64,000 nucleotides of DNA. Origin: Balneola sp. (GTDB lineage: Bacteria; Bacteroidota; Rhodothermia; Balneolales; Balneolaceae). The notes beneath the pieces are model-generated. The model saw only the letters and a list, made by a program, of their open reading frames with translations, was not told where the DNA came from and searched no databases. Shown piece after piece: positions 22,671 through 28,754 of this stretch. The translations under genes were made by a program, and so were the position numbers. The stretch lies in NCBI GenBank assembly GCA_002694685.1, contig NZMW01000004.1:740632-804631 (forward strand). The letters run 5' to 3'. Positions within the stretch are counted from its first letter, which is position 1; every line of letters begins with the position of its first letter.

Positions 22671-23423
22671 ATGTTTCAACGATTTATCCGTGCTATAAAA
22701 TCTATGTTCGGTGGTTTGATAAGCTCAATGGAAGATCCAAAACTCATTCTTGAGCAAAACATTCGGGATTTGAACGATCAAATTCCTCAAATGAATGAAA
22801 ACATTGCGACGGTAAAAGCTAATCTGTTGATGCTCCAAAAGGAGATGAATCGCAATGAAAAAGCGATACAGGATTTAACAGCTAAGGTTAAGTCAGCCAT
22901 TCAGGCCGACCGTGATGATATCGCAGAGGGATACGCTCTTCAGCTTGAAAAAGCCAAGGAGAATTACGCACACACCAAAGATCAGCTTCAGTTTGCAGAT
23001 AGAGCATACGAGAAAGCGATTAAGGTGAAAAAAGTATTTATGCGCGAAAAAGATCGCAAGATCCAGGAAGCTAAAGAAGCTCTTCGTGCAAGCGAGCGCT
23101 CAGAATGGCAAGCTAAAATTGCGGATACGCTGGAACAATTCGAAGTGGGCGGTATTGATCAAACCCATGACGAAATGATTAATCGTATCAACGAGCAGTC
23201 TGCCAAGAATGAAGCCCGTATGGAAATTGCTTTAGACAGCATTGATACGGAAACCATGGAAATTGAGGCAAATGCTGAGAAAATCAGAGCGAAGTCTTTG
23301 GTAGAGCAGTTCAAGATGGAAATGGGCGATAAAAGTGGTTCTATCAATATTGACGAGGAAGAACCAGCAAAAGAGAAAGACAGCTCTAAGACGGTTGGCA
23401 ATAAAGAAAAAAGCAGTTCATAG
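22671..23423 (+). CDS. pspA: PspA/IM30 family membrane-stress protein
   Basis: 250 residues. An N-terminal amphipathic helix (FQRFIRAIKSMFGGLISSM) is followed by the PspA start signature MEDPKLILEQNIRDL and then almost continuous coiled-coil helices to about residue 215. The tail is Ser/Lys/Glu-rich and ends KTVGNKEKSSS. PspA/IM30 proteins are the bacterial relatives of ESCRT-III; they polymerise on stressed inner membranes and stabilise or remodel them (established knowledge). ATG 22671 follows an AAAGGAAAG site. The next gene, nine bases on, encodes a protein matching the C-terminal half of this one, so the operon carries a full-length and a shortened paralogue. Confidence 0.92.
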   Translation: MFQRFIRAIKSMFGGLISSMEDPKLILEQNIRDLNDQIPQMNENIATVKANLLMLQKEMNRNEKAIQDLTAKVKSAIQADRDDIAEGYALQLEKAKENYAHTKDQLQFADRAYEKAIKVKKVFMREKDRKIQEAKEALRASERSEWQAKIADTLEQFEVGGIDQTHDEMINRINEQSAKNEARMEIALDSIDTETMEIEANAEKIRAKSLVEQFKMEMGDKSGSINIDEEEPAKEKDSSKTVGNKEKSSS

Positions 23424-23432
23424 GACATAGCC

Positions 23433-23912
23433 ATGAGCAGCAAAAGTGAACAAGAACGCGAACGCCTGAAAGAAGAATACAAAGAGCATTATCGGCGTAT
23501 TAAAGAGGCAAAGGAACGTCTTAAAAGAACGGAGCAGAAAGGTAAAATTGCGAAAGCAGTTGAGAATATGAACTCTGATAACCTGCTTGAGTCGGTTGAT
23601 GAGTTCTTGGGTAAAGTCCGTGATAAAGTTACTCACGTGGAAGCCCGCCTTGATGTTGCTATGGACAGTCTTGATGACGACGATTCTGAAATCAGCAATA
23701 AAGTGAAGCAGGAAGAGCTGGATGAAGAACTCAAAAAGCAGAAGGCTAAACAGACCCTAAAGCAGGTGAAAGCTGAAATGGGTATGTTATATAATGAGAT
23801 TGAGAAACATGCCGATGAAATTCGTACAGAGAAAACCATTGGTAACAAAAAGTCACCTTCCGACAGCGCTGACTCCAAAAGCACCGATAATTCATCAGAG
23901 CCCAACAAATGA
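23433..23912 (+). CDS. Shortened PspA paralogue, coiled-coil protein
   Basis: 159 residues, almost wholly charged coiled coil. It aligns with the C-terminal half of the preceding PspA: EAKERLKRTEQ...KIAKAVE corresponds to EAKEALRASER...KIADTLE, EARLDVAMDSLD to EARMEIALDSID, KQVKAEMG to EQFKMEMG, and the tails share KT(V/I)GNK. It lacks the amphipathic helix 0 and the first helical hairpin, so it could not insert into membrane like full PspA. It may cap or modulate PspA polymers (inference). The start lies nine bases after the pspA stop, and its stop overlaps the next start codon (ATGA), so all three genes are coupled. Confidence 0.8.
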   Translation: MSSKSEQERERLKEEYKEHYRRIKEAKERLKRTEQKGKIAKAVENMNSDNLLESVDEFLGKVRDKVTHVEARLDVAMDSLDDDDSEISNKVKQEELDEELKKQKAKQTLKQVKAEMGMLYNEIEKHADEIRTEKTIGNKKSPSDSADSKSTDNSSEPNK

Positions 23913-24796
23913 GTAATGACGAGCTAAACATCAACTATACCCGCGAAGCTTTTATGAACCCTATTAATTTAGGTGTTCTTCTGGTTTCTACATTGACGGC
24001 CTTTTTCATGTCAGGGTTAGGAGATGTCTCCAGTTTACTTTTAACATCGGTATTCGGTCTCGAGCTGATGTACCTCGGTATAGTTCCAAAATTGCCCCGT
24101 TTCCGCAAAAAACTGGAGCTTAAGAAAATCAAGGAACGCCATGCTGCTAATAACGAGAAAGAGCTGTTTCAGTCATTGGATACCAAATCTCAAAAGCGAT
24201 TCTTGGTCCTTAAGCATCTAGCCAAACTTGTTCAGGAAAACTTCGAGAAGCTTCCGTACAGCTCACAGGGATTATTAGACAACATCGGGAAGAAAATTGA
24301 TGAGCTCCTGGGTAATTACCTGACCCTTCTTGATTTAATTAAACGCTATGAAGTTTATCTGAATACGTCACTGGAAAGCAACCTGAAAGAGGAAGTGGTG
24401 CGTCAGATTGAAGAAATTAAAACACTGGATTCAGAGAAGCTGAAACGCACAAAAGCACGTCGCGTTGCCATCATGCAAAAGCGACTCAAGAAGTTTAATG
24501 TAGCAAAAGAGAAATATCTGGTTTGTGAAACACATCTTGAAACCATCGAAGATGCGGTCAGGTACATCTATGAGCAGTCTATGACCATGAGCAACCCGGA
24601 AGAAATTGGTTTCCAGCTGGATAACTTACTCACTGAAGTAGAAGAAACTTCACAATTGATTGACGACTTAGATCAGGATATTTTACCTGAGTACACAACC
24701 GAATGGGAAAAAGATCTGGATTTTGATTCGATTTTGGATGACCTGACCGGTGAAGTGGAAACGGAAATTAAACCTGCTAAAAAAGTCAAAGAATAA
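23909..24796 (+). CDS. Membrane-anchored coiled-coil protein of the PspA operon
   Basis: 295 residues. After a short polar N-terminus, a hydrophobic hairpin of two close helices covers about residues 18-62 (LGVLLVSTLTAFFMS...LLLTSVFGLELMYLGIV). The rest is long charged helices (about 70-270), including a Lys/Arg-rich stretch RTKARRVAIMQKRLKKF, and an acidic C-terminus. I know no family name. Its start overlaps the stop of the PspA paralogue by four bases, so it belongs to the same transcript and probably anchors or recruits PspA at the inner membrane (inference). The enoyl-CoA hydratase start follows after three bases. Confidence 0.72.
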   Translation: MSNDELNINYTREAFMNPINLGVLLVSTLTAFFMSGLGDVSSLLLTSVFGLELMYLGIVPKLPRFRKKLELKKIKERHAANNEKELFQSLDTKSQKRFLVLKHLAKLVQENFEKLPYSSQGLLDNIGKKIDELLGNYLTLLDLIKRYEVYLNTSLESNLKEEVVRQIEEIKTLDSEKLKRTKARRVAIMQKRLKKFNVAKEKYLVCETHLETIEDAVRYIYEQSMTMSNPEEIGFQLDNLLTEVEETSQLIDDLDQDILPEYTTEWEKDLDFDSILDDLTGEVETEIKPAKKVKE

Positions 24797-24799
24797 ACT

Positions 24800-25579
24800 A
24801 TGGATTCGACTTACGAAACGCTTCTTTTAGATGTTGATGAAACAGGAATTTGCACGCTTACCATTAATCGCCCGGATAAACTGAATGCTCTTAACAATTT
24901 GGTTTTAGAAGAGCTTGCAGAAGCGGTAGACGCGATCAAGGAAAATTTCAAAATAAAGTCTTTAATAATTACCGGCGCTGGAGAAAAAGGATTTGTAGCC
25001 GGAGCCGATATTAAAGAGTTGAGTTCACTTGATCCTGTTTCCGGACAAAAAGCTTCCCAAAAAGGACAGTCCGTATTTCAAAAAATTGAGGATCTCACCA
25101 TTCCTGTTATAGCAGCCGTTAATGGTTATGCTTTAGGAGGGGGATGTGAATTGGCTATGGCCTGCCATCTCCGTATTGCTTTTGATAAAGCAGCTTTTGG
25201 CTTGCCGGAAGTTAGTTTAGGATTGATTCCTGGCTATGGGGGAACACAGAGACTCACACAGCTTGTAGGTCGTGGTAAAGCTCTGGAGCTTATAATGACG
25301 GGCCGACAGGTTAAGGCAGACGAAGCATATGAAATTGGACTGATTAATCAGGTAACGGAGCATTCTCCTGTTGATGAAGCCAAATCCATGCTGAGTAAGA
25401 TCATGAAGCAAGGGCCGGTAGCTATTAAAAATGCACTGCTTGCTGTTAAAGAGGCTGGTTCAGGATCCGGTTATGAGGAAGAAGCAAAACTTTTTGGAGA
25501 ATTGTGCGGTACTGCTGATTTTAAAGAAGGAACCAGCGCATTTCTTGAAAAAAGAAAAGCTAACTTCTCCGGTAAATAG
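24800..25579 (+). CDS. Enoyl-CoA hydratase/isomerase family protein
   Basis: 259 residues with the crotonase fold. The oxyanion-hole segment is GAGEKGFVAGADIKEL, the second is AAVNGYALGGGCELAMACHLR, and the catalytic Glu pair of hydratases is in FGLPEVSLGLIPGYGGTQRL (both Glu positions retained). This fits a short-chain enoyl-CoA hydratase of fatty-acid or butyrate-type metabolism; the symbol (crt, fadB-like, paaF) cannot be decided. Start ATG 24800 comes three bases after the preceding stop, so it is cotranscribed with the PspA operon. Such tight linkage of a metabolic enzyme to membrane-stress genes may be incidental. Confidence 0.9.
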   Translation: MDSTYETLLLDVDETGICTLTINRPDKLNALNNLVLEELAEAVDAIKENFKIKSLIITGAGEKGFVAGADIKELSSLDPVSGQKASQKGQSVFQKIEDLTIPVIAAVNGYALGGGCELAMACHLRIAFDKAAFGLPEVSLGLIPGYGGTQRLTQLVGRGKALELIMTGRQVKADEAYEIGLINQVTEHSPVDEAKSMLSKIMKQGPVAIKNALLAVKEAGSGSGYEEEAKLFGELCGTADFKEGTSAFLEKRKANFSGK

Positions 25580-25667: not shown

Positions 25668-26945
25668 ATGTTTGAACTAGGCCTCATCACCTTAACAATT
25701 CTATTAAGTGGGTTCTTTTCAGGGTCAGAAATAGCTTTTGTTACAGCTAATAAACTTAAGCTTGAAGTAGCTTCCAGAAAGAATAATTTCCTTTCCAATT
25801 CCATAGAGTTTTTTACCAGAAAGCCGGAAACTTTTCTGACTACCACCTTAGTGGGAAATAATATCGTAAACGTGCTCTATGCTACGTTCATGGCTATTTT
25901 TTTAGTTGAACCTGTACAAGTTTATTCGGAAGCCTGGTTTGGGTTCATTCCCTCAGAACTAGAGGTTTTGCTGATACAGACCATCATAGCATCGGTTGTT
26001 ATTATGTTGTTCGGCGAGATTTTGCCCAAAGCCATTTTCAGAGCGCTCGCTGATAATATGATTTCAGTGATATCTATACCGCTTCGATTTGCCTACTACA
26101 TATTCAGGCCATTGATTGAAATCTCGAAAGGATCTTCAAATATATTAATTAAGTGGTTGGTTAAAGATGCTGAGGTTGTAGAAAGCTATTATCGACGTCA
26201 GGATGTGGAAATGATCTTTAAAGAGCTTCGCGATGGCGGGGGGAGTGAAGATATTGACGAAGACGATTCAGAGATCCTACATAACGTTTTGGAGCTATCC
26301 AATAAGAGAGTGAAGGATTCGATGATTCCCCGTATTGAAATTGAAGCCGTGGAAAAGGATACGGCAATAGATGAGGTGCTTAACATTTTTATTCAGTCAG
26401 GGCATTCAAAGCTCCCGGTATATCGCGAGTCAATTGACGATGTAATTGGCGTCGTGTTTGCTCATGATTTTTTCCATGTACCCAAGTCTTTAAATGAGAT
26501 TATTCGCCCTGTAAAACTGGTTCCTTCCAGTAAAAAATCCAAGGGCTTATTGACGGAATTTCGTCAGTCTAACATGTCTGTAGCTATTGTTTTGGATGAA
26601 TACGGAGGAACGGCCGGTATGGTGACTATCGAAGATTTGCTGGAAGAAGTAGTTGGAGATATTCAGGACGAATACGATGTGGAAGATGAGATCATGAAGA
26701 AGCTCTCTGAGAATACGTATGTGGTTAGCGGGAATGTCGAGATTCAGGAGCTAATTGATAAATTTAGTGAAATTGAACTCCCACTGGAACCTTCTGAATA
26801 TGATACCGTAGCGGGATTCATAATTAATCATTTAGGGCGGATTCCAAAAGTAAATGAGGAAGTGGTGATTGAGAGTAAAAAATTTATTATCAGTAAAGCC
26901 ACACCAAGCCGCATTGAAACGGTAAAGCTTATTTTAATTGAGTGA
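25668..26945 (+). CDS. CNNM/CorC-HlyC family membrane protein (DUF21-CBS pair)
   Basis: 425 residues. The N-terminal DUF21 (CNNM) membrane domain has three to four helices within about residues 1-150 (including GFFSGSEIAFVTANKLKLE and MLFGEILPKAIFRALADN). Two CBS domains cover about 205-330 (MIPRIEIEAVEKDTAIDEVL and the VLDEYGGTAGMVTIEDLLEEVVGDIQDE region), then a C-terminal CorC_HlyC domain ends the protein. The family takes part in Mg2+/Co2+ efflux or resistance; the hemolysin label is historical. The start follows a GATGAAGG site. It is on the same strand as the PspA operon and AAA+ gene; a strong hairpin separates it from the latter. Confidence 0.92.
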   Translation: MFELGLITLTILLSGFFSGSEIAFVTANKLKLEVASRKNNFLSNSIEFFTRKPETFLTTTLVGNNIVNVLYATFMAIFLVEPVQVYSEAWFGFIPSELEVLLIQTIIASVVIMLFGEILPKAIFRALADNMISVISIPLRFAYYIFRPLIEISKGSSNILIKWLVKDAEVVESYYRRQDVEMIFKELRDGGGSEDIDEDDSEILHNVLELSNKRVKDSMIPRIEIEAVEKDTAIDEVLNIFIQSGHSKLPVYRESIDDVIGVVFAHDFFHVPKSLNEIIRPVKLVPSSKKSKGLLTEFRQSNMSVAIVLDEYGGTAGMVTIEDLLEEVVGDIQDEYDVEDEIMKKLSENTYVVSGNVEIQELIDKFSEIELPLEPSEYDTVAGFIINHLGRIPKVNEEVVIESKKFIISKATPSRIETVKLILIE

Positions 26946-27041: not shown

Positions 27042-28754
27042 ATGTTTGATCACTATCCGAAATGGTCTCAGGAATTTGCTAGAAAATATCTAAGCAGAAC
27101 CATCAATCAATTTATTTTGCATGGTAATGTGCATGATTTGGTTTCCCTCAAAACAGATAAAGGGACTGAGTTTCACCGCCTGAAATCATTTCTATCAGAT
27201 GAATTTTTTGGAGCCCGTGATTTTGTGATTTTCTATGATCGTGCTTCGGGCATCTATTTTAGGGATAAAGAATCGCAAGCTGATTTTAATCAGGCGATAG
27301 CTGGCCGGGATAGTTTGGTGGGCACTGATTTTGCCAAGAAAATGCCGAAAGATCCGGTGCGGGTAATGTCTTTATTGGAGCAGTATTTCCGCCTTAGACT
27401 CGATCAAAAGAAAAGCGTGGCTCTCATTATTGACTACGCGGAGACCATTATCCCGATGAGCGATGCAGCCTCTACAGGAAATGAAGATCGTACGGCCATG
27501 GTGTATTTATCGCGCTGGGCGCATGATCCGATGTTTCTGGCTTCGGACTTTACCACGGTGATGATCACCGAAAATCTTGCTGATCTTAATAAGACTATTG
27601 TTCAGAATCCTTACACAACCGATATCAAAATTAGTATTCCGGGGGAAGAGGAGCGAAAAGCATTTATTGAATACGAAACCAAAGATGATGAATGGAAAAA
27701 GATTTCTGCGGTAAAGGCTGATATCATTGCTCAGCAAACGGCGGGTTTGAACTTCGTAAATATCCGAAGTGTGCTTTCGAATGCTCGTGAGAATGAAGAG
27801 AAAATCACTTTCGAAGGACTTTCAGAAACTAAGAAAGAACTTATTGAGGCGGAAGCTTATGGCTTGCTTGAGTTCGTAGAAACCGAATATTCCCTGGATA
27901 ATGTAGCCGGTCATAAACATGTGAAAAACCATCTAAGACAAGCTGTGAAGGCACTTAAAGCTGGTAGGCAAGACGTAATGCCGATGGGGTATCTGGTTTG
28001 TGGTCCGGTAGGAACCGGTAAGACTTTTCTCGTTACTTGTTTTGCCAGTGAAGTGGGTATTCCCATGGTGAAATTGAAGAACTTCCGAAGCCAATGGCAG
28101 GGAGTTACGGAAGGAAATCTCGAAAAGATTTTGTCGCTGCTTAAAGCGATGTCGCCGGTTGCGGTTATGATTGATGAAGCGGATGCTTATTTAGGAGACC
28201 GTGATGCCAGCGGAGACAGTGGAGTTTCCAGTCGGGTATTTTCTCAGATCGCCACATTTATGAGTGATACGTCTAACCGTGGTCGAATTGTATGGTTCTT
28301 GATGACAGCTCGACCTGACCTTATGCCTATCGATTTAAAGCGGCAGGGTAGGGCAGAGGAGCATTTGGCGCTATTCCCTCCTCATACCAATGAGGAACGA
28401 ATAGAGCTTTTTAATGTCATGAAGAAGAAAACCGGACTACAAATGACGGAGGAATATATACCGGCCGTTATCGAAGAGGGCTTTAAAACGTTTTCAGGAG
28501 CTGATATGGAAGCGGCATTAACAAGAGCAAAATTCCGAGCAGCGGCAGCAGGTCGCAAGAAAGTCACTCCCGAAATTCTGGACGCCGCATTGGCTGATTT
28601 CATTCCACCTACTTATCCGGAAGAAGTTGAGCTTCAGACATTAAGCGCGGTGATCGAATGTACATCTAAAGAACTTCTCCCCGAGCGCTATCGCGAAATG
28701 AACCGGGATGAAATTCTTTCAAAGATTGATGAGCTGAAATTTAGGGTGGGGTAA
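27042..28754 (+). CDS. Two-lobed AAA+ ATPase (Ycf46-like architecture)
   Basis: 570 residues. The C-terminal lobe is a canonical AAA+ module: Walker A GPVGTGKT (321-328), Walker B VMIDEAD (375-381), sensor 1 region LMTARPDLMP, arginine-containing RQGRAEEH, and a helical lid with FSGADMEAALTRAKFRA. The N-terminal 280 residues look like a degenerate AAA domain: no Walker A, but a Walker-B-like ALIIDYAE (127-134) and a VMITENLADLNKTI sensor-like strand. This degenerate-plus-active layout recalls Ycf46-type and spastin/Vps4-like ATPases. No membrane segment. Lying downstream of pspA, it is a candidate disassembly or remodelling ATPase for PspA filaments, which is inference only. Confidence 0.82.
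   Translation: MFDHYPKWSQEFARKYLSRTINQFILHGNVHDLVSLKTDKGTEFHRLKSFLSDEFFGARDFVIFYDRASGIYFRDKESQADFNQAIAGRDSLVGTDFAKKMPKDPVRVMSLLEQYFRLRLDQKKSVALIIDYAETIIPMSDAASTGNEDRTAMVYLSRWAHDPMFLASDFTTVMITENLADLNKTIVQNPYTTDIKISIPGEEERKAFIEYETKDDEWKKISAVKADIIAQQTAGLNFVNIRSVLSNARENEEKITFEGLSETKKELIEAEAYGLLEFVETEYSLDNVAGHKHVKNHLRQAVKALKAGRQDVMPMGYLVCGPVGTGKTFLVTCFASEVGIPMVKLKNFRSQWQGVTEGNLEKILSLLKAMSPVAVMIDEADAYLGDRDASGDSGVSSRVFSQIATFMSDTSNRGRIVWFLMTARPDLMPIDLKRQGRAEEHLALFPPHTNEERIELFNVMKKKTGLQMTEEYIPAVIEEGFKTFSGADMEAALTRAKFRAAAAGRKKVTPEILDAALADFIPPTYPEEVELQTLSAVIECTSKELLPERYREMNRDEILSKIDELKFRVG

Follow-up and report, generated by a model that had tools for sequence, protein, structure and literature searches.

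A truncated PspA paralogue in a conserved bacterial operon, and a C-terminal tail motif that co-occurs with an AAA+ ATPase

Background

What use does a bacterium have for half of a PspA? The question is raised by a locus within a 64,000-nucleotide stretch of DNA from Balneola sp. (hereafter the window), whose host genome measures 3.95 Mb. A full-length PspA gene is followed there by a gene whose short product resembles the C-terminal half of its neighbor, and then by a gene encoding a membrane protein. An earlier note on this DNA had read the three genes as a compact unit in which a partial ESCRT-III-fold subunit could cap or regulate PspA polymers. The three open reading frames are those given in that note, with products of 250, 159 and 295 residues. 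They belong to a block with the gene order PdxB-like (minus strand), thymidine-phosphorylase-like, PspA, half-PspA paralogue (the half protein), membrane protein, enoyl-CoA hydratase family, CNNM/CBS and AAA+ ATPase, the PdxB-like and thymidine-phosphorylase-like labels being our assumption. The features discussed below are the following:

22671..23423, plus strand: PspA, 250 residues, with helix 0, hairpin, helices 4-5 and a tail with KTVGNK
23388..23405, plus strand: tail motif KTVGNK of PspA (residues 240-245)
23433..23912, plus strand: half-PspA paralogue, 159 residues, with the end of helix 3, helices 4 and 5, and a tail
23832..23849, plus strand: tail motif KTIGNK of the half protein (residues 134-139)
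23909..24796, plus strand: membrane partner, 295 residues, with two N-terminal membrane helices and a long, mostly helical domain
24800..25579, plus strand: enoyl-CoA hydratase family gene (PF00378, 208 bits), a syntenic neighbor whose position is kept in most loci
25668..26945, plus strand: CNNM/CBS/CorC_HlyC membrane protein (PF01595, PF00571, PF03471), a syntenic neighbor
27042..28754, plus strand: class-specific AAA+ ATPase, 570 residues, with a C-terminal AAA domain (PF00004, 87.8 bits)

The gap between the PspA gene and the half gene is 9 bases, and the half gene overlaps the membrane-protein gene by 4 bases, with the downstream start codon inside the overlap.

The half protein as a truncated PspA paralogue

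The full-length protein of the window belongs to the PspA/IM30 family, matching Pfam PF04012 with 59.2 bits (cut-off 33.9) over residues 2-208 of 250, and it is the sole PF04012 match in the genome at E-values up to 0.001. The profile built from PspAs of the window's class aligns to Vipp1 structures over positions 1-201. Outside the class, 29 phylum genomes have a PF04012 match above the cut-off, the best in each scoring 114-187 bits.

The half protein had been assigned in the earlier note, from an alignment by eye, to the C-terminal half of PspA, and profile comparison bears this out. BLASTP aligns it with the adjacent PspA at an E-value of 2e-13 (32% identity over 134 columns). An hhalign comparison of 38 half orthologues plus the window protein with 40 PspA orthologues plus the window PspA gives a probability of 99.2% and an E-value of 6e-20, positions 21-145 of the half protein falling on positions 131-258 of PspA; a repeat with 20 + 20 rows gives 99.3% and 7e-21. 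With both tails removed, the E-value is still 4e-17. The probability is 0.3% when the half protein is compared with PspA residues 1-130, 0.2% with reversed PspA, and 0.3% when a neighboring long-helix protein is taken as a control. Block shuffling does not abolish the score in every case: among 100 heptad-block shuffles, the best reached an E-value of 1.4e-7 and a probability of 94%. Taken together, the tail-cut, reversed, 1-130, shuffle and neighbor controls show that the match is neither that of a generic coiled coil nor due to the tail alone. The missing match to PspA residues 1-130 also agrees with the claim that helix 0 and the first hairpin are lacking.

The alignment starts at PspA residue 125-131, and the helix 1-2/3 hairpin of the ESCRT-III superfamily is absent from the half protein. 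Judged by its sequence, the half protein is a PspA derivative that is incomplete as an ESCRT-III subunit, having neither helix 0 nor the hairpin (helix names in both proteins were assigned by comparison with Vipp1). The half protein alone has no PF04012 match at E-values up to 1, and PF04012 is likewise absent for 20 aligned half relatives among the matches listed (25 of 50 families). Sequence searches of Pfam, NCBIfam and PDB yielded no credible match to either the half protein or the membrane protein. AlphaFold2 predicts three helices in the half protein (residues 2-45, 48-82 and 87-130) and a low-confidence tail, with a pTM of only 0.30. The EARxxxAL residues, the helix-5 residues and the tail are conserved among half proteins, and a tree of C-terminal halves, which has few columns and long branches, is compatible with one old origin of the half protein.

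Conservation of the gene block

Used as a single-protein query, the half protein has matches in 49 of 198 phylum genomes, none of them outside the class to which the window belongs. Its profile, which also finds PspA, matches in 150 of 155 class genomes, with two matches in 140 and one in 10. The membrane-protein profile has a match in 149 of these 155 genomes and the AAA profile in 144. Neither the membrane protein nor the AAA was found in any of the 149 phylum genomes outside the class, 29 of which have a PspA over the Pfam cut-off.

The idea of a compact three-gene unit holds among relatives. The order PspA-half-membrane protein is kept in 38 of 40 fetched loci, the other two being without the half gene, and 77 of 80 named loci have both PspA and the membrane protein, with the half gene between them in 75 of the 77. 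Two Balneolales loci (L137 and L138) have PspA and the membrane protein and no half gene. The AAA gene stands after the CNNM gene in 19 of 20 fetched loci of the window's order and in none of 20 fetched loci of other families, in whose genomes it lies elsewhere.

The membrane partner

The third gene had been described as encoding a two-helix membrane protein. Two N-terminal membrane helices are indeed present (residues 18-33 and 39-61, from hydropathy and AlphaFold2), but the description undersold the protein, in which about 230 mostly helical residues follow, with a well conserved stretch at about residues 209-247. This helical domain would lie on the cytosolic side of the membrane. The nearest named relatives of the protein include Gracilimonas and Balneola (Balneolota). 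No Snf7 profile is among the matches listed for eight members of this family at E-values up to 10.

The AlphaFold2 model of the membrane protein has a pLDDT of 78 and a pTM of 0.57. With this model as the query, the best Foldseek match is an F-BAR chain (E-value 0.19), and a Vipp1 chain ranks 28th (E-value 0.61). The best VIA-align match is a designed protein (Z 12.3), and BAR-like proteins score 8.3-9.8, which is helical-bundle noise. A BAR fold is not claimed because Foldseek E-values of 0.19 or worse and these Z scores are at noise level. At locus L192 (genome G258) the membrane-protein gene has a tandem, diverged second copy (164 vs 327 bits). At L097 and L058 (genome G065, a chromosome record) the gene occupies two overlapping frames, through a frameshift or a sequencing error.

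The AAA+ ATPase and the common tail

The AAA+ gene and the meaning of the common tail, both absent from the earlier note, are the most informative part of the analysis. The AAA+ protein contains Walker A and B sequences, as read from its residues, and its nearest solved relatives are VCP-like/CDC48. An MIT domain and a Vps4 C-terminal domain are both missing from its list of 10 Pfam matches (E-values up to 1). A second AAA copy in the N-terminal part was considered and none was detected: Pfam matched the C-terminal AAA domain only, and hhalign, with shallow profiles, gives a probability of 0.3% between the N-terminal and C-terminal parts.

The shared KTVGNK and KTIGNK tails, already pointed out for the two window proteins, are real. 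In PspA and the half protein alike, a variable linker leads to the C-terminal motif [KR]-[TS]-[ILVM]-G, which was sought in the last 70 residues of PspA and the last 110 of the half protein. In genomes in which the AAA was found, the motif is present at the C-terminus of 71 of 80 PspAs, within the last 40 residues, and in 69 of 71 half proteins within the last 50 residues (70 of 71 within the last 110); shuffled tails would be expected to yield 1.1 of 80 and 0.8 of 71, respectively. The half protein of G119 has no motif, and two PspAs of family f47 that were scored as motif-less read KTAG. The first motif position is K in 70 of 71 PspAs and 65 of 70 half proteins. Right after the motif, 66 of 71 PspAs have K, R or N, and 46 of 70 half proteins have R. 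The linker between helix 5 and the motif spans 20 to 47 residues in the 60 PspAs in which it could be measured. The motif does not occur in the last 90 residues of 41 membrane proteins or 20 AAA proteins. It is also absent from all 29 PspAs read from the rest of the phylum (of 30 genes, L249 being left out), where the AAA profile found nothing.

Co-occurrence of the motif and the AAA

Motif and AAA were counted together in 99 genomes, a subset of the 155 class genomes built from chosen loci: G000, sets of 40, 40 and 18 (three of the 18 being repeats) and three more. Loci L072-L151, which served for synteny and structure alignments, were left out of this count owing to overlap, and G251, G285, G287, G291, G300, G308 and G318 were left out for having no PspA match. 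G304, G309 and G318 have AAA matches of about 74 bits, which were assigned to other AAA proteins.

The AAA was found in 80 of the 99 genomes, and each of these 80 carries at least one motif; in 71 it is PspA that bears it, and in the remaining 9 the half protein alone does. Among the 19 genomes in which the AAA was not found, the motif is missing in 16, nine of which are also under 90% complete; the three exceptions with the motif are G256, G277 and G290 (92%, 89% and 89% complete). In all nine AAA-positive genomes with a motif-less PspA (families f4, f8, f44 and f47) the half protein carries two motif copies, vs 9 of 62 half proteins from genomes whose PspA has the motif (Fisher p 7e-7, not corrected for descent). 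This hand-over between PspA and the half protein amounts to only two changes on the tree.

The motif does not simply follow the half protein. Nine genomes keep the AAA without the half protein (G316, G317 and seven more), and all nine retain the motif; thus, the reading that the motif tracks the half protein was rejected.

One loss lies in family f42 (20 genomes), where a full AAA match exists only in G289, G316 and G317, with PspA tails reading KTVG or KTMG. G316 and G317 have no half protein, yet keep both AAA and motif. The other 15 f42 genomes with PspA have no found AAA, no half protein and no motif; PspA (370-387 bits) and the membrane protein remain. Six of these 15 genomes are at least 90% complete and nine are 51-88% complete, and the absence of the AAA from f42 genomes is unsure. 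Ten of their 15 motif-less PspAs still read KTVH, NTVH, STVH or QTVH near the end. A mechanical loss of the tail together with deletion of the half gene was considered for this family, but these remnants look like drift and not like deletion. Nine of the 15 motif-less PspAs (L203-L217) end in another conserved run, [KNS]TVHV[NK]..NHV, as if KTVG had drifted to KTVH or been re-used. Since the membrane protein persists beside PspA in f42 genomes that lack both the half protein and the AAA, it probably anchors PspA.

The second loss is of a different kind. G237 (L224:5099-9549) is a reduced genome of 2.2 Mb with the order thymidine phosphorylase-PspA-hydratase-CNNM; the half protein, membrane protein and AAA are missing and the PspA tail is shortened. 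One deletion may therefore explain the state of the tail, and its loss by deletion is likely.

The 15 f42 genomes in which no AAA was found group as a single clade on a tree built from the PspA core and the membrane protein, the tail being excluded. If the three exceptions are set aside, the tree shows two losses of the AAA and two of the motif, which coincide each time (sign test p 0.5); if they are counted, there are five changes of the AAA and two of the motif. The chance that two random motif losses both fall on the AAA-loss branches is about 2 x 0.022 x 0.0039 = 1.7e-4 from branch lengths, G237 being deletion-scarred. Because the independent events are few, G237 bears a deletion scar and descent is shared, the link between tail motif and AAA is rated as a strong lead.

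A proposed mechanism and its alternatives

The homology, the synteny, the conservation of the tail and its co-occurrence with the AAA are directly supported. They can be combined in a proposal to which we give slightly less than an even chance, namely a PspA-based, ESCRT-III-like membrane-remodeling system with a dedicated AAA+ motor, in which the half protein would be an accessory or capping subunit and the tails would be handles for the AAA+.

Full-length PspA would form a membrane-bound polymer, which the two-TM protein may anchor or nucleate at the membrane. The half protein, possibly an old partial duplicate that kept helices 4-5, would dock on PspA hairpins, with its helix 5 on the hairpin tip; it would offer helix 4-5 contacts and accept none, behaving as an end cap or a side-bound accessory. 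Having no hairpin of its own, it should be unable to extend the polymer, which argues for an accessory or capping role. That the half protein caps or regulates PspA polymers is plausible by analogy, because the helices 4-5 that it retains form Interfaces 1, 3 and 4 of Vipp1 polymers according to the structural description in PMC8281802, which also reports that Vipp1 truncated ahead of helix 5 does not assemble into rings or filaments.

The tails of PspA and the half protein would hang flexibly from the polymer and end in the motif, nearly always with K, and the 570-residue AAA+ ATPase would grip them, extract subunits and so disassemble the polymer. The half protein would supply extra handles for the AAA+ and would be their sole carrier in some lineages. 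Co-occurrence suggests this recognition of the PspA or half tail by the AAA+: tails persist wherever the AAA does, with or without the half protein, and are mostly missing otherwise, so a grip of the AAA on the tail is the most economical interpretation. The true reader of the tail could also be some other partner that disappeared along with the AAA.

The half protein might instead be purely a cap or inhibitor of PspA polymers, its tail binding the two-TM protein, PspA or something else, with the link to the AAA a coincidence of descent. We regard this as unlikely, even though helices 4-5 kept without a hairpin fit a cap and AAA losses are independent only twice: in the 15 f42 genomes where no AAA was found, PspA and the membrane protein persist but the motif does not, and G316 and G317 retain AAA and motif without the half protein. 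Thus, neither the membrane protein nor the half protein explains why the tail is retained.

Less probable still is a tail recognized, through phosphothreonine or otherwise, by a regulator unrelated to the AAA, the half protein then being a decoy with extra sites. The motif is short, centered on T or S and present in several copies in places, all of which would suit such a role; however, a scan of six genes of the block matched neither a kinase nor an FHA-type domain, and the loss of the motif together with the AAA points elsewhere. That the half gene is a decaying, functionless pspA duplicate, as its absence from several lineages (five changes on the tree) might suggest, is hardly credible given the 140 of 155 class genomes with matches for both PspA and the half protein (one match in 10), the conserved residues and tail, the overlap with the downstream start codon and a C-half tree that allows one old origin.

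Relation to known systems

Like canonical PspA and Vipp1/IM30, the window PspA has a PF04012 match, and the profile of its class aligns with Vipp1 structures. It differs from canonical PspA in being divergent (59 bits), in having a tail motif of its own and in being accompanied by a truncated paralogue.

A related neighborhood has been mentioned before, around CBH24266.1, which we take to be a Salinibacter ruber protein. One sentence of Ravi et al. (2024, PMC11237479) names PspA, Snf7 and a coiled-coil gene resembling PspA as neighbors in Bacteroidetes (CBH24266.1), and another part of the same paper describes PspA with a two-domain AAA+ ATPase whose N-terminal copy is inactive (AEY64321.1). 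The likeness thus extends to PspA, a PspA-like coiled-coil gene and a third gene, and elsewhere to an AAA+ linked to PspA; our membrane protein may be the gene that these authors called Snf7. The statement in the earlier note that no such system had been described therefore stands in part. The neighborhood itself was already known, but sections 15 and 18 of that paper do not describe the coiled-coil gene as a truncated PspA paralogue and do not mention the tail motif common to both proteins, the AAA link or the hand-over between PspA and the half protein. No other paper on this operon was found by title or abstract start in the open-access literature, searched without supplements. The truncated-paralogue assignment, the class-wide conservation, the common tail and its relation to the AAA look new.

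The proposed system would work like the ESCRT-III of eukaryotes and archaea with Vps4, sharing with it subunits that polymerize and expose their C-terminal tails, an accessory type of subunit and an AAA+ motor. The arrangement of half protein and AAA can be compared to that of Vps2/Vps24 and Vps4. The tail motif is presumably not a helical MIM. In ESCRT-III, the tails of polymerized subunits bind MIT domains (as outlined in PMC9477494), Vps4 removes and unfolds subunits (as summarized in PMC11746142), and an early B-type subunit of Asgard archaea recruits a later A-type subunit (as reported in PMC11804906). Unlike Vps4, the AAA of this block is nearest to VCP-like/CDC48 and has no MIT domain in Pfam, and unlike in ESCRT-III, the accessory subunit lacks the hairpin.

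For the disassembly of bacterial PspA/Vipp1 polymers without Vps4, the relevant passage of PMC11746142 suggests only PspF or chaperones, and a passage of PMC11237479 calls the regulation of assembly unknown for PspAs that have no AAA linked to them. The present proposal predicts a specific motor, a specific tail motif and an accessory subunit jointly, and lineages with natural losses serve as controls. The AAA+-driven system proposed above can be carried a step further, in a form that we hold only tentatively and think somewhat doubtful: that Balneolota/Rhodothermota evolved, separately from Vps4, an ESCRT-like machine made of a PspA polymer, a hairpin-less paralogue acting as an AAA+ adaptor, and a motor reading a K-[TS]-[ILVM]-G code that shifts between subunits. 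If true, the block would be a compact bacterial parallel of the division of labor between ESCRT-III and Vps4.
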